This document shows positions 24,672-30,203 of a stretch of DNA of 64,000 bases, piece after piece. Source of the stretch: Tropicibacter sp. Alg240-R139 (GTDB taxonomy: Bacteria; Pseudomonadota; Alphaproteobacteria; Rhodobacterales; Rhodobacteraceae); the NCBI RefSeq assembly GCF_900537075.1, contig NZ_UNRA01000001.1:496001-560000 (forward strand). The letters are read 5' to 3'. The notes below the pieces were generated by a model. It saw nothing but the letters and a program-made list of their open reading frames with translations. It was not told where the DNA came from and searched no databases. Made by a program: the position numbers and the translations under genes. How positions within the stretch are numbered: position 1 is the first letter of the stretch; the number at the start of each line of letters is the position of its first letter.

Positions 24672-25598
24672 TTGGACGATCTTCGCCTGTCACTTAGATT
24701 GCTGCGGGCCTACATGGTCGCTGTCGACTGCGGTTCCATCACAGGCGCGGCTGAAGTGTTGAACGTTGCGCCATCGGCCGTGGCCGCAGCGATCGACCGG
24801 GTCGAGGCCGAATTCGGCGCAACGCTTGTTGTTCGTGCACGGGCCCGTGGCATCACGGCGACGCCGGCCGGGCGAGCGTTGGCCGCGCGGATCAGACCGC
24901 TGATTGAGGACTATTCTGACGTCATGCAGCAAGGATATGCGTTGAGCCAAGGTTTGCGTGGCACACTGCATATTGGCTACTACGCCCCCATCGCCCCTGC
25001 ATTTTTGCCGCATATTTTGCGAAATTTGACTGATAACACCTCAGAATTGAACTTTAGCCTGCAAGAATGCGACAATATCACGGCGCAATCAGGGCTTTTG
25101 GATGGCACGCTCGATGTGGCTTTGTTTGCCGGAGATGAGTTGTTGGCCGGGGTGGAAACACGCTCGCTGATGGATCTGCCGCCCTATGTCCTTGCTCCTA
25201 AGGGTCACGCGCTAAGTGCTCGATCAGAGTTGAGTTTGCGCGATCTGCATGACACCCCCCTCGTTTTGCTCGACTTGCCTGTGGCCGGTGCCTATGTCCG
25301 CCGTTTGTTGCGCGCTGCCGAGGTCACACCTCACGTCGTGGCAACCTGCACGAGCGTCGAGATGGTGCGCTCTTTGGTCGGCGCGGGTGCGGGTGTGGCC
25401 GTGTTGAACATGCGCCCGCGCACCCAGCAGAGCTATGGCGGCGACATACTGCGAACCCTCCCCCTGACGGATGGAGACCCCTTGCACTTGGTAACAGGGC
25501 GCGCTGCCGGAACGCCGCGCCGGTTGGTGCAAGTGTTTCAGGACCGGCTGCACGACTGGTTCACCGGACCTGAGGCACGAGAATTGATCACGCTGTAA
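24672..25598 (+). CDS. LysR-family transcriptional regulator
   Basis: 308 aa. HTH in the first 60 residues (LSLRLLRAYMVAVDCGSITG, then LNVAPSAVAAAIDRVEAEFG) followed by a periplasmic-binding-like effector domain. Start is TTG at 24672 with GAGGAAG 6 nt upstream; no ATG lies before the HTH. Divergent from the sterol-desaturase-family gene (112 bp between starts), its most likely target. Its end overlaps the convergent ACT-GNAT gene by 11 bp. Confidence 0.92.
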   Translation: MDDLRLSLRLLRAYMVAVDCGSITGAAEVLNVAPSAVAAAIDRVEAEFGATLVVRARARGITATPAGRALAARIRPLIEDYSDVMQQGYALSQGLRGTLHIGYYAPIAPAFLPHILRNLTDNTSELNFSLQECDNITAQSGLLDGTLDVALFAGDELLAGVETRSLMDLPPYVLAPKGHALSARSELSLRDLHDTPLVLLDLPVAGAYVRRLLRAAEVTPHVVATCTSVEMVRSLVGAGAGVAVLNMRPRTQQSYGGDILRTLPLTDGDPLHLVTGRAAGTPRRLVQVFQDRLHDWFTGPEARELITL

Positions 25599-26472
25599 TT
25601 GCCGATGTCGCCCAGGACCAACGAAAGATCAGATTGTCTGATTTCCAAAGGGGTCCTGTGTCCTGCTTCTCGGCCACGATATCGCCGCCCTGAACCGCAT
25701 AAAACCCAACGGCCTGCGTATTTTCCTTGACGACCGCCAATGTCACCTGCGTATTGCCCGCCCGGCTCGACAGTCTCTGAGACAGCCGCAAAAGATGGGC
25801 TCCGATCCCGGACCCACGGGCGGATTTTACCACATAAAGGTGATCAATCTCACCCGCGCAGTCTGAAAGTGCACACAACCCGACGATACGCCCATCCATC
25901 TCGGCCACCAGCGCTTGCGCGGGGCCCTCAAGGCGGGTTTGCCAATACCTTTTGCGATGGGCCAGGTTCAACGCGAGACGCACCTGGGGTGGGGCGATCT
26001 TGGCATAGGTTTCTTGCCAAGTTTCAAAATGGACCTGCGCCAGAGCTTCGTTATCCGCCGACGTTGCCAAACGATAGGTAACGGCGGCGGTGCAATAGTG
26101 ATGCCCTGTAGCGATCCAGGCAGCTTGCGCGGCATAGGCTTCCCTCTTGCGCACCAACAGATAGTCGCGATCAAACGTCGAGGTGACGAAAGCGCCCAAA
26201 CCGGCCCGAGAAATCGGCTGCACCGCCGTCAACACAACACCGGGCACGTCCAAATCGACCAGGTTCGACACCTGTACGGCGTGCCATCCACCCGAGCATT
26301 GTTCGGTAACAGGCACGCGGGCCTCAAGGCACAGGATCGATGTTTCATCGGGGGCTTGAGTGACACTCACCAGCCCCTCCCCCTGCACCCAATCAGGCAC
26401 AGGAGTTTCGGGCGCGCGCCGGGTCACCGCATAGGTTCCCGGCAGCGCGTTCAGCACGAGCTGCACAGTCAT
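25588..26472 (-). CDS. ACT domain (CASTOR/ACT_7-like) fused to GNAT N-acetyltransferase
   Basis: 294 aa in one uninterrupted frame. Residues ~1-115 follow the pattern of the small bacterial ACT_7/CASTOR-like family: LPGTYAVTRRAPETPVPDW, TSILCLEARVP, GWHAVQVSNLVDLDVPGVV, and the ending ISRAGLGAFVTSTFDRDYLL. Residues ~130-290 are a GNAT domain with the acetyl-CoA loop VVKSARGSGIGAHLLRLSQ (R219, G222, G224) and the late NTQAVGFYAVQGG. It starts 24 bp after argF on the same strand, so it is probably the third cistron of argD-argF. ACT domains bind amino acids, and mammalian CASTOR binds arginine, so an arginine-responsive acetyltransferase is a fair inference. The acetylated substrate is unknown. 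Confidence 0.85.
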   Translation of the reverse strand: MTVQLVLNALPGTYAVTRRAPETPVPDWVQGEGLVSVTQAPDETSILCLEARVPVTEQCSGGWHAVQVSNLVDLDVPGVVLTAVQPISRAGLGAFVTSTFDRDYLLVRKREAYAAQAAWIATGHHYCTAAVTYRLATSADNEALAQVHFETWQETYAKIAPPQVRLALNLAHRKRYWQTRLEGPAQALVAEMDGRIVGLCALSDCAGEIDHLYVVKSARGSGIGAHLLRLSQRLSSRAGNTQVTLAVVKENTQAVGFYAVQGGDIVAEKQDTGPLWKSDNLIFRWSWATSAITA

Positions 26473-26496: not shown

Positions 26497-27423
26497 TTAA
26501 GCGCCCAAACACCAGCGCATGATGGCCTTTTGCGCATGCAGACGGTTTTCGGCCTCGTCGAAGATCACTGAGTTCGGCCCGTCCATCACTTCGGATGTCG
26601 CCTCTTCCTCGCGGTGTGCCGGCAGGCAGTGCATGAACAAAGCATCTGGTTTGGCGTGCGACATAAGCTCGGCGTTAACCTGATAGGGCCGTAGCATGTT
26701 GTGGCGACGTTCCTTGGCGGATTGCGCATCATGCATCGACACCCATGTATCAGCCACCACGAGGTCGGCCCCTTCAACGGCTTTGAACGCATCACGCTCA
26801 ACCTGGACAGTGGATCCCTTCTGGCGCGCAAAACCCATAAATTCTTCTTCCGGATCCAACTGCGCAGGGCCGGTGAAGGTCAGGTCAAATCCAAATTGAC
26901 CGGCAGCATGTAGGAAGGACGCGCAGACATTGTTGCCATCGCCGGTCCAAACCACCTTTTTGCCAGCGATGGGGCCGCGATGTTCCTCGAACGTAAGAAC
27001 GTCAGCCATGATCTGACAGGGGTGGGTTCGATCGGTCAGGCCATTGATCACAGGTACGCTGGCGTATTCCGCCATCTCGGTCAGCACCGTTTCATCAAAG
27101 GTGCGGATCATGATCATGTCGACATAGCGCGACAGCACGCGGGCGGTATCGGCGATGGTCTCGCCATGACCAAGCTGCATGTCCTTGCCCGACAGCACCA
27201 TGGTTTGCCCGCCCATCTGGCGCACACCGACATCAAAGGACACCCGCGTCCGGGTCGACGGCTTTTCAAAGATAAGCGCAACCATACGGTCTTTGAGCGG
27301 CAACTCGTCGTCAAGGGCCGCCTTGGGTTGGCCAGCCCGCGCGGCCTTGGTCTTGGCAGCTTGGTCAATGATGCCGCGCAACTCAGCGGCATCGGTTTTG
27401 TGGATGTCTAGGAAGTGGTTCAT
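26497..27423 (-). CDS. argF: Ornithine carbamoyltransferase
   Basis: 308 aa, normal length. The carbamoyl-phosphate loop [15 protein letters not shown], the [14 protein letters not shown] segment and the ornithine-site motif [12 protein letters not shown] are all intact. It makes citrulline from ornithine and carbamoyl phosphate in arginine biosynthesis. ATG at 27423 ([15 protein letters not shown]) matches family starts; the frame stays open into argD but that part is not protein-like. It follows argD with a 79-bp gap that holds a repeat hairpin. Confidence 0.97.
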
Positions 27424-27442
27424 GTCGGTATCGCTTTTGGCT

Positions 27443-27502: not shown

Positions 27503-28690
27503 TCAGGCGGTTGCCAGCTGGCTTTCGACCTGTTTGGCGGCGGCACCGAGGCGGCTTGCGGCCTCGGCGATGTCGTCCTCGGTCAATGTCAGCGGCGGCA
27601 ACAGGCGGATCACGTTGTCGGCGGCAGGAACCGTGACGACTTGGTTGTCATAGCCTGCGTTCACCACTTCGATGTTGCTCGCCTTGCATTTGAGGCCCAG
27701 CATCAAGCCGGATCCGCGCACCTCTTCGAACACTTCGGGGTGTTCGGCGATCACCCCTTCGAGCTTTTGACGCAGCAGACCTGATTTTCGGTTCACCTCG
27801 GCCAGAAACTCTGGTTCGGCTACATGATCCATGACAGCGCAACCAACAGCACAACCCAGCGGGTTGCCGCCGTAGGTAGAGCCGTGGGTGCCCGCGACCA
27901 TGCCAGATGCAGCCTCTTCAGTGGCCAAAACAGCCCCCAGTGGGAAGCCGCCCCCGATGCCCTTGGCCACCATCATGATGTCGGGCGCGATGCCCGCCCA
28001 TTCGTGAGCAAAAAGCTTGCCTGTCCGACCCACGCCGCATTGCACCTCGTCCAGTATCAAGAGCAGATCGTTATCTTCGCAGATTTGACGCAGCGCCTTG
28101 AGTTCAGCGTCAGGCACAGGGCGAATGCCCCCCTCGCCCTGAACAGGTTCGATCATAATTGCGGCCGTATTCTCGGTGATGGCATTGGTCACGCCGTCCA
28201 GATCACCAAAAGTCAGGTGAACAAAGCCACCCAACAGTGGGCCAAAACCTTTGGTCATCTTTTCGGACCCGGCGGCGGCGATGCCTGCGGACGACCGACC
28301 ATGGAACGAGCCATCAAAGGTGATGATCTCGACTTTTTCCGGCTGCTCTTTGTCGTAGAAGTATTTGCGCGCCATCTTCACTGCCAGTTCGCAGGATTCA
28401 GTCCCAGAGTTGGTGAAGAACACCGTGTCAGCAAATGTATGTTCCACCAGCTTGTCGGCCAGTGCTTGCTGTTGCGGGATCTCGTACAAGTTCGAGACAT
28501 GCCACAGGTTCTGCGCCTGATCTGTCAGGGCCTGCACCAATGCCGGATGCGCATGGCCCAGCGCGTTCACGGCGATGCCTGCGCCCAGATCCAGAAAACG
28601 TCGGCCATCCGCCTCGATCAGCCAAGCGCCTTCGCCCTTCACAAACTGAAGGGGCGCACGATTATAGGTCGGCAGAACGGACGGGATCAT
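27503..28690 (-). CDS. argD: Acetylornithine aminotransferase
   Basis: 395-aa class III PLP aminotransferase. It starts [20 protein letters not shown], then [69 protein letters not shown] and the PLP-lysine segment [17 protein letters not shown]. It converts N-acetylglutamate semialdehyde to N-acetylornithine. ATG at 28690 has AAGG 9 nt upstream; the ATG at 28699 would abut that site. First structural gene of the arginine operon, 117 nt downstream of an Arg-rich leader ORF. Confidence 0.96.
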
Positions 28691-28807
28691 CTGGATCATC
28701 CTTTTCGAAGAGTTGAAGCCCGATGAGTGCATCACATGGGGCGGTTTCGTCAACATTTTGAGGTAGGGAAGCGCGGATTAAGAGACGCGCAAGATCAAAC
28801 GGGCCGG
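28691..28807 (-). promoter_or_regulatory. Candidate attenuator between the Arg leader ORF and argD
   Basis: Leader region of the argD transcript. Segment GCGTC at 28784-28788 is complementary to the two GACGC copies formed by the leader's Arg codons (28820-28824 and 28826-28830). The overlapping segment GCGCG (28786-28790) can instead pair with CGCGC (28771-28775). The two pairings exclude each other, which is the logic of attenuation. I see no strong U-tract after the second stem, so the output could be Rho-dependent termination or control of argD translation rather than intrinsic termination. Confidence 0.5.
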
Positions 28808-28861
28808 TTACGCAGCAAAGCGTCGGCGTCGGAGCAGGGTGATATGTGCAACTTTGATCAT
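28808..28861 (-). CDS. Arginine-rich leader peptide (candidate attenuation peptide)
   Basis: 17-codon ORF encoding MIKVAHITLLRRRRFAA and ending TAA. ATG at 28861 is preceded by GGAG with a 7-nt spacer, a good ribosome-binding site. Codons 11-14 are consecutive arginines (CGA CGC CGA CGC). It lies on the argD strand, 117 nt upstream of argD. A run of codons for the end product just upstream of its biosynthetic operon is the hallmark of leader-peptide attenuation. The call rests on position, codon content and ribosome site; expression is not shown. Confidence 0.75.
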   Translation of the reverse strand: MIKVAHITLLRRRRFAA

Positions 28862-28898
28862 GAGACAGCTCCATAACGAAGGAATCGAGGCTTGAAAA

Positions 28899-28913
28899 CC
28901 CCTTTTGAAGGGG
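28899..28913. promoter_or_regulatory. Short palindrome in the arg leader / MFS divergent region
   Basis: CCCCTT and AAGGGG around TTG, 38 bp upstream of the leader ORF and within the 112-bp region shared with the divergent MFS gene. It could be an operator or a small hairpin in the arg 5' untranslated region. No promoter hexamers were firmly recognised. Confidence 0.35.
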
Positions 28914-28973
28914 AACACCTGCATTTTGTCACCCCTCCTTGACCATCTTCGCAAATTGACGACCAATGCCGCT

Positions 28974-30203
28974 ATGACAACGCTTTGGTCCCTGCGCAAT
29001 TATCGCCTGTTGTTTTCCGCTTCTGCCATTTCCAATCTGGGCGACGGGGTATCTGCCCTTGCCTTTCCCTGGCTTGCCACCTTGATCACCCGTGATCCGA
29101 TGCTGATTGCCATGGTCGCCTTTGCCACGCGCCTGCCTTGGCTGCTATTTTCGATCCCGGCCGGGGTCTGGACCGACCGAATGGATCGCCGCCGCTTGAT
29201 GGTGCAGGCCGATCTGGTGCGGATGTTGCTGACCTTTGGCGTCGTTGCGGTGATCCTGAGCGCGCCCGAATTCCCAGCCGCCCGCGCCGAGCTGTATATC
29301 GTCGCGATTTCGGCGCTGGCCTTCTTGTTGGGCTTGGCCGAAGTGTTGCGGGATAATGCGGCCCAGACAGTATTGCCCGCTGTTGTGTCCACCGATCAAC
29401 TGGAGCGCGCAAACGGGCAGATCTGGAGCATTGAGCAAATCATGGGGTCCTTTGTTGGCCCACCTTTGGCAGGGTTGCTGATCGCAACCGCCGTACCTGT
29501 TCCTTTTGTGCTGGACGCCGCGACATTTGCACTGGCGGCAGGGTTGGTGTGGTGCATGACAATTGCACCACGTTTGAACCCCAATCGCAGATCATGGACG
29601 CTAGAGGCAAAGGAAGGGATTTCCTGGTTGCGGGGGCACCGGGTCATCCTGCAACTGGCCATCATGCTGGGGCTGATGAACGCGGTGTCGCTGATGACGC
29701 TGACGATTTTGATCCTCTTCAGTCAGGAAATACTGGGGCTGGGAGCTGCGGGGCACGGCCTGTTGCTAACAGCAGGCGCCGCCGGTGGCGTGACGGGCGG
29801 GCTGTTATGTCCCGCAATCGCCGCGCGTCTCGGGCGCCGCTCCTCGCTCTTGATCGCATTGGCTTTACTAGCGCTCGCATTGGGTGTGATCTGGCTCGCG
29901 ACCTCTGTCTGGCTGGTCTCCCTCGCGCTTTTCGTCGAAATGTTTGCCGCCCTGCTGTGGAACGTGGTCACAGTTTCTTACCGCCAACGGCTGATTCCAG
30001 ACGATCTGTTGGGCCGCGTCAACAGCCTCTACCGGTTCTTCGGTTGGGGCATGATGCCATTTGGCGCTTTGATTGGCGGAGCGATTGTTTCACTGGTTGA
30101 ACCCTCGCTGGGGCGCGAAGATGCGTTGCGCCTACCCTACTTCTTGGGCGCGCTCGGCATGTTGGCAATCTGGCTTTACGCCTATCGACAATTACGCCTT
30201 TGA
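28974..30203 (+). CDS. MFS transporter (MFS_3/EntS-like)
   Basis: 409-aa integral membrane protein with about 12 hydrophobic segments. It begins MTTLWSLRNYRLLFSASAIS, followed by NLGDGVSALAFPWLATLIT and the loop GVWTDRMDRRRLM with the charged MFS motif A pattern. It resembles the EntS/MefA-like exporter branch, which includes siderophore and drug efflux. Substrate unknown. ATG at 28974 was chosen as the first Met before the first helix. It is divergent from the arginine leader. Confidence 0.88.
   Translation: MTTLWSLRNYRLLFSASAISNLGDGVSALAFPWLATLITRDPMLIAMVAFATRLPWLLFSIPAGVWTDRMDRRRLMVQADLVRMLLTFGVVAVILSAPEFPAARAELYIVAISALAFLLGLAEVLRDNAAQTVLPAVVSTDQLERANGQIWSIEQIMGSFVGPPLAGLLIATAVPVPFVLDAATFALAAGLVWCMTIAPRLNPNRRSWTLEAKEGISWLRGHRVILQLAIMLGLMNAVSLMTLTILILFSQEILGLGAAGHGLLLTAGAAGGVTGGLLCPAIAARLGRRSSLLIALALLALALGVIWLATSVWLVSLALFVEMFAALLWNVVTVSYRQRLIPDDLLGRVNSLYRFFGWGMMPFGALIGGAIVSLVEPSLGREDALRLPYFLGALGMLAIWLYAYRQLRL

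Follow-up and report, generated by a model that had tools for sequence, protein, structure and literature searches.

Bacterial arginine synthesis is best known to be controlled by ArgR-type repressors, whereas leader-peptide attenuators of the classical kind are known for the trp, his, leu, ilv, thr and phe operons. In the stretch of DNA analysed here (64,000 nucleotides of Tropicibacter sp. Alg240-R139; the window), a short open reading frame (ORF) with a run of arginine codons stands in front of argD and argF, and the question that it raises is whether a ribosome reading these codons controls the two genes and, if so, by what route. The ORF lies on the minus strand (28808–28861), with its ATG at 28861 and its stop codon ending at 28808, and comprises 17 codons with the translation MIKVAHITLLRRRRFAA. 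Codons 11–14 are CGA CGC CGA CGC, and a gap of 117 nt lies between the stop and the argD ATG at 28690. Re-reading of the sequence found the ORF, its four consecutive arginines and the 117-nt gap where a preliminary description of this DNA had placed them. The downstream genes are also those that it had named, as NCBIfam assignments identified argD, encoding acetylornithine transaminase (27503–28690, minus strand; NF002325 and TIGR00707), and argF, encoding ornithine carbamoyltransferase (26497–27426, minus strand). A Shine–Dalgarno (SD) sequence, AAAAGGA (28705–28699, minus strand), precedes argD. In 78 of 80 related loci argF comes after argD on the same strand. A minus-strand ORF of 294 aa after argF (25591–26472) had no NCBIfam match at E 1e-10, and an MFS transporter gene on the plus strand (28974–30200) is divergent, on the far side of the promoter-like element P1 described below.

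Conservation of the leader was assessed in two sets of relatives. The close set consisted of the best 80 argD loci of 587 relatives, with leader starts picked by hand; the family set was an even draw of 149 Rhodobacteraceae genomes, 147 of which, from 146 genera, yielded argD. The named genomes closest to the window belong to Ruegeria and further Rhodobacteraceae. All 147 upstream regions were inspected, two of them shortened by contig ends. A scan of the family set for ATG-started ORFs of 6–28 aa located 70–250 nt upstream of argD found RRRR in 75 of the 147 genomes, compared with 0–1 in ten dinucleotide shuffles and 1 of 147 on the reverse complement, and RRR in 89 (1–5 in ten shuffles, 3 on the reverse complement). 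ORFs with RR or R.R were present in 119 of the 147, and because shuffles gave 25–39 of these and the reverse complement 25, this looser class is weak evidence for a leader, whereas the RRRR and RRR counts are strong evidence. Under the same weak rule, a candidate short ORF precedes argD in all 80 close loci; in 69 of them the upstream ORF carries 3–5 arginines in a row, the longest run of the chosen ORF being two in 11 loci, three in 10, four in 52 and five in 7. The four-arginine run, whose recurrence before argD in relatives the preliminary description had proposed as a check, is thus conserved in both sets.

Not every family member carries the leader. In 28 of the 147 genomes an ATG ORF with even two clustered arginines was absent; 21 of these 28 encode an argD protein at most 70% identical to that of the window, and at least one begins its leader, which has RRR, with GTG. 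When the leader region was used as a plain DNA query, 12 of the 149 family genomes matched, so DNA similarity alone is insufficient to follow the element. At E ≤ 1, a covariance model recovered just 15 of 41 genomes, several with weak matches, and is therefore unsuited to distant members; in the window's own genome its single match was the argD leader. In other alphaproteobacterial families, argD was matched in 56 genomes, and among the 28 of these that were inspected by eye two had an RRR or RRRR ORF, neither with the leader layout. By these sequence comparisons, a leader with an arginine-codon run before argD is real and conserved.

What is kept within the leader was examined in a set of 104 genomes of different genera, for which an ATG ORF with RR and a TTGAC element (see below) at its usual place were required. 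Of the 147 family genomes 105 qualified, and one was left out because the window's genus was already represented; where there was a choice of starts, a start with TA upstream or with RRR was preferred. RRR is present in 79 of the 104 leaders. Residues ahead of the arginine run show free variation, I or T being somewhat favoured at position 2, and since the N-terminal residues change from genus to genus, it is the codons that are conserved. The run usually opens with CGA, a codon that accounts for 50% of leader arginine codons (n = 365) versus 7.7% of those in argD (n = 1,207) across the 80 loci. Retention of the arginine run while the rest of the peptide changes fits sensing of Arg-tRNA, and the free variation of the peptide, combined with the CGA-rich run, favours codon sensing over a sensor of peptide sequence. 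A leader of the latter sort is SpeFL, in which the peptide binds a metabolite inside the ribosome. The conserved C-terminal arginine run and the pathway-related gene downstream would suit such nascent-peptide sensing, but no conserved peptide precedes the presumed stall site here: positions 2 to 8 differ from genus to genus in the set of 104, and anything from 0 to 6 codons separates the run from the stop, making this reading highly improbable.

The uniformity of the run could also have a cause other than translation. The 12-mer CGACGCCGACGC forms the run in 49 of the 104 genera, and such nucleotide uniformity would be expected if the run were kept by chance or by a constraint on the DNA, with the ORF left untranslated. 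However, the ATG, the frame and a nearby stop persist although the rest changes, other arginine spellings such as CGACGA and CGTCGC occur too, and shuffles and the reverse strand lack such ORFs; we give this explanation very little credence. The window's own genome holds six copies of CGACGCCGACGC, and at the five outside the leader no leader layout was seen by eye.

The start of the leader transcript can be predicted from the promoter-like element P1 (28870–28898, minus strand), which was drawn from a position profile over the 80 loci and the genus sample and consists in the window of a −35-like TTTTCA (28898–28893), a 17-nt spacer and a −10-like TATGGA (28875–28870). Over the 80 loci, the profile displays a T-rich −35-like element and a −10-like element that contains TA, and the base just ahead of the ATG is a pyrimidine; the −35 is often clearer in genera distant from the window, for example TGGACA or TTTACA (by eye). 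In the 104-genome set, C or T directly precedes the leader ATG in 96 genomes, and a −10-like TA is present in 97, a count inflated by the preference for TA in the start-picking rule. P1 was not detected by a generic sigma-70 promoter scan. With this layout, transcription from P1 is expected to start at the leader ATG or at most 2 nt from it. The preliminary description had read GGAG, which does sit 7 nt before the ATG, as the ribosome site of the leader; this part of the description falls away, as the motif is unconserved and lies inside the −10-like hexamer, as part of a TATGGAG found in 5 of 80 loci. SD-like motifs precede the leader in 9 of the 80 close loci and in 6 of the 104 genomes, versus 101 of 104 before argD (search windows of 11 and 14 nt). 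Because SD-like sequence is so rare before the leader and P1 lies right upstream of the ATG, the leader mRNA is probably leaderless.

An RNAalifold consensus run on a 49-row alignment recovered three helices unprompted, all on the minus strand. H1 joins leader codons 1–3 to a GATC segment beyond the stop, its 5′ arm being GATCAAA (leader nt 3–9; 28853–28859) and its 3′ arm TTTGATC (28793–28799). Hairpin H2 (28810–28823) pairs ACGC (28823–28820), at the end of the arginine codons, with GCGT (28813–28810), a 3′ arm that runs into the stop codon in the window and lies after the stop in many relatives. Hairpin H3 (28771–28790) pairs GCGCG with CGCGC. RNAalifold also drew a two-pair loop within the arginine run and, at the argD start, GATC paired with GATC; both are too invariant to test. 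Across H1–H3, 9 of 16 pairs had changed on both sides in 37 rows, compared with 2.6 in shuffles and 3–5 in slid versions; for H2 one pair of four had done so, which is weaker than H1. At the genus level, 37 of 74 distinct H1 5′ arms had a helix score of at least 6 versus 8.1 expected from swapping arms between genomes, and control arms gave 7 versus 4.8 and 16 versus 16.6 expected. This test of H1 is stronger than the row alignment because its sequences differ widely.

Own-versus-swapped folding energies pointed the same way, and these swap tests, like the z values of the scan that follows, ignore kinship among the genomes and are thus comparative only: mean z (n = 104) was −0.98 for H1, −0.34 for H2 and −0.55 for a further hairpin, H4 (GCCC/GGGC; 28718–28742, minus strand), compared with −0.04 and −0.02 for controls. 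In an open scan of 696 window pairs (mean z 0.2, s.d. 1.05), H1 windows ranked first to third (z 6.2, 5.7 and 5.3), above a match of the leader stop codon to the argD SD region (4.5), H2 (4.4), H3 (3.7) and H4 (3.3 and 3.0). The stop–SD match was rejected as a pairing, since it breaks up into matches of 2–6 bp at shifting places. The helix between the leader's start codons and TTTGATC is therefore the best-supported long-range helix in these comparisons, and H2 supplies a covarying hairpin that involves the control codons, as in attenuators.

A switch between two mutually exclusive structures had been proposed in the preliminary description, with GCGTC (28784–28788) pairing with the arginine codons and the overlapping GCGCG (28786–28790) pairing with CGCGC (28771–28775). 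The three motifs are where it had put them, and the second pairing, which is H3, covaries; the first is kept in 4 of the 63 loci, among the 80, that have the GATC motif. Nothing in the 696-pair scan covaried in competition with H1 or H4, and the masked-ribosome folding (below) was flat, so no such pair of alternatives was found. The window's own leader RNA is no more stable than shuffles (z 0.76), although z averages −1.3 across the 80 loci. At codons 5–7, the leader in the window also contains a CATAT motif (28841–28849). This motif occurs in 45 of the 80 loci, in the same frame in 37 of them and in another frame in 8, and because the frame differs its conservation may be at the nucleic-acid level; no pairing partner for it was found.

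The sensing half of the leader is thus well supported, and its output half we infer. Neither the preliminary description nor the present analysis found a U-tract terminator before argD, and the leader is therefore not filed as a classical intrinsic-terminator attenuator. H4, which precedes the argD ribosome site and has no U-tract after it, is more stable than shuffles (mean z −1.36 over 80 loci). It was rejected as a candidate intrinsic terminator because the best stem is followed by an average of 3.0 T in 9 nt over the 104 genomes. Between H3 and the TTGAC element lies a C-rich, G-poor stretch (28754–28770, minus strand), a candidate Rho loading site that is shorter than typical rut sites. 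From the leader stop to argD, C exceeds G in 103 of 104 genomes, compared with 40 of 104 upstream and 17 of 29 genomes without a leader, a composition that fits Rho action. When folding was computed with a ribosome masked at the arginine codons or at the stop, the argD start was unchanged (mean difference −0.002, P = 0.35) and the C-rich stretch differed by only 0.013 (P = 0.007). H1 dropped from 0.39 to 0.23 in both states and H2 was nearly gone; because the drop was equal, stalling and finishing look alike in this static model.

These results bear on translational attenuation, in which a stalled ribosome would act by changing how accessible the argD ribosome site is and not by ending transcription early. 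The lack of a terminator and the position of H4 just before the argD SD would agree with it, and a report on Staphylococcus aureus rbfL describes a precedent, in which arginine codons of a leader peptide sense arginine limitation and act on translation; there, the leader lowers translation of the biofilm regulator rbf by blocking its RBS and, in contrast to the argD leader, is presented as unlinked to arginine biosynthesis (PMC13009471). However, the argD SD lies outside H4, its accessibility did not change in the folding test and no consistent anti-SD pairing was found. We regard a purely translational output as quite unlikely.

A second promoter-like element, P2 (28724–28753, minus strand), overlaps H4 and consists of TTGACG (28753–28748) followed after 17–18 nt by CA. 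TTGAC is present 51–88 nt before argD in all 80 close loci and 48–115 nt before it in 127 of 147 family genomes, versus 6.8 expected. It is followed by GGCA after 16 nt in 57 of the 104 genomes, after 17 nt in 9 and at other spacings in 2, with none in 36, and it occurs in relatives without the leader too, there often as TTGAC, 18 nt and CA (by eye). The −10 region of P2 starts with CA instead of TA despite the strong TTGAC, and in many genera it is preceded by GG. By eye, the varying arms in the stretch that holds TTGAC and H4 gave no support to two other readings, a sigma-54 promoter and a fixed transcription-factor palindrome. We read the TTGAC element as an apparently older argD promoter, so that part of argD transcription may bypass the leader.

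This promoter-like element also speaks for a leader that acts mainly in trans or by itself, in which P1 would give a short, 5′-protected RNA ending before P2 while the TTGAC promoter, found with and without the leader, drives argD. H1 would shield the 5′ end of such an RNA, and rnTrpL/peTrpL of Sinorhizobium meliloti offers a model: as reported, this alphaproteobacterial attenuator RNA starts at the trpL ATG, as we predict for the argD leader, and unlike that leader it belongs to the Trp operon, its attenuated RNA and peptide acting in trans (PMC7298713). By contrast, the argD leader peptide is unconserved save for its arginine codons, the leader stays beside argD, and H4, which lies downstream of TTGAC, covaries, suggesting transcription of an RNA that contains this hairpin. 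We consider action in trans unlikely.

The reading that we prefer is a ribosome-mediated arginine attenuator, that is, a leader peptide controlling argD–argF, and we judge it likely. Attenuation by sensing of Arg-tRNA was also the mechanism of the preliminary description, and parts of it stand (the conserved arginine-codon leader, the covarying H3, the lack of a U-tract), whereas the GGAG site and the GCGTC switch do not. In the attenuator that we propose, P1 would place the transcript start at or next to the leader AUG, so that the message would be translated as a leaderless mRNA. H2 would stay open while a ribosome occupies the leader, since the last arginine codons form the hairpin round the stop, and the leader's first codons could pair with the segment beyond the stop as H1; these early steps are those to which the comparisons speak. 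When Arg-tRNA is ample, the ribosome would leave quickly and H1 and H2 would close. Closure of H1 would keep further ribosomes off the 5′ AUG, and transcription of the now untranslated RNA, which contains the C-rich, G-poor stretch, would be terminated before argD, most likely by Rho. When Arg-tRNA is scarce, the ribosome would wait on the arginine codons, keeping H2 and often H1 open, and transcription would enter argD–argF. The TTGAC element would supply a basal level of argD from its own promoter. More tentatively, and with less confidence than doubt, we suggest that the leader is a self-locking, one-round gauge: the long-range helix would seal the 5′ AUG after about 70–100 nt, so that the pioneer ribosome alone reads the arginine codons and its dwell time sets argD–argF transcription, without an intrinsic terminator.

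Rfam gave no match at gathering scores in the window and none up to E 10 in 28600–29050. Among the papers that our searches of the open-access PMC literature listed, none described such an arginine leader, whether ahead of argD or in Rhodobacteraceae. A comparative study of Actinobacteria describes no conserved RNA structure before arginine operons there (PMC1262725). Classical attenuators and the Rhodobacterales cysS leader uORFC-8-2 (PMC8632094) resemble the argD leader in having a short ORF with consecutive codons of the pathway amino acid before a biosynthesis or synthetase gene, and hairpins that involve these codons. The cysS motif, however, ends in a U run typical of an intrinsic terminator, which the argD leader lacks (PMC8632094), and the argD leader further differs from both in its leaderless look, in having its first codons in a long-range helix and in its amino acid, arginine. 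Salmonella orf34/speF senses arginine through two consecutive arginine codons, with Rho-dependent termination and a hairpin past the stop involved, but controls ornithine decarboxylase through a conserved 34-aa peptide with an SD, in a leader of about 500 nt (PMC6386406). The Pseudomonas aeruginosa carA leader peptide likewise precedes a gene, here one common to arginine and pyrimidine synthesis, but attenuation is ascribed to pyrimidines and arginine control to the transcriptional level (PMC4997734). Attenuation by the S. meliloti duf1127 upstream ORF is alphaproteobacterial, lacks an intrinsic terminator, probably uses Rho and includes pairing of the RBS of the ORF with its first codons, but it senses translation in general, and the ORF has an RBS and contains the C-rich element within itself (PMC12218461).

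From its sequence features, the argD element is best filed under ribosome-mediated attenuation, as a family-wide, codon-based arginine leader of unusual build. If this is correct, arginine biosynthesis would join the pathways with an attenuator, codon-based control of arginine synthesis would extend through much of a large bacterial family, and the leader would provide a simple test bed for attenuation on a leaderless mRNA without a terminator hairpin. A family-wide self-locking arginine attenuator, if that is what it is, would be a new form of attenuation, and because the start-codon helix covaries, the mechanism is directly testable through compensatory mutations. A different arrangement was seen by eye upstream of argD in seven distant family members without the arginine leader, in which a TTGAC promoter-like site is followed by a GC hairpin with a T-tract that resembles a different attenuator or a terminator.
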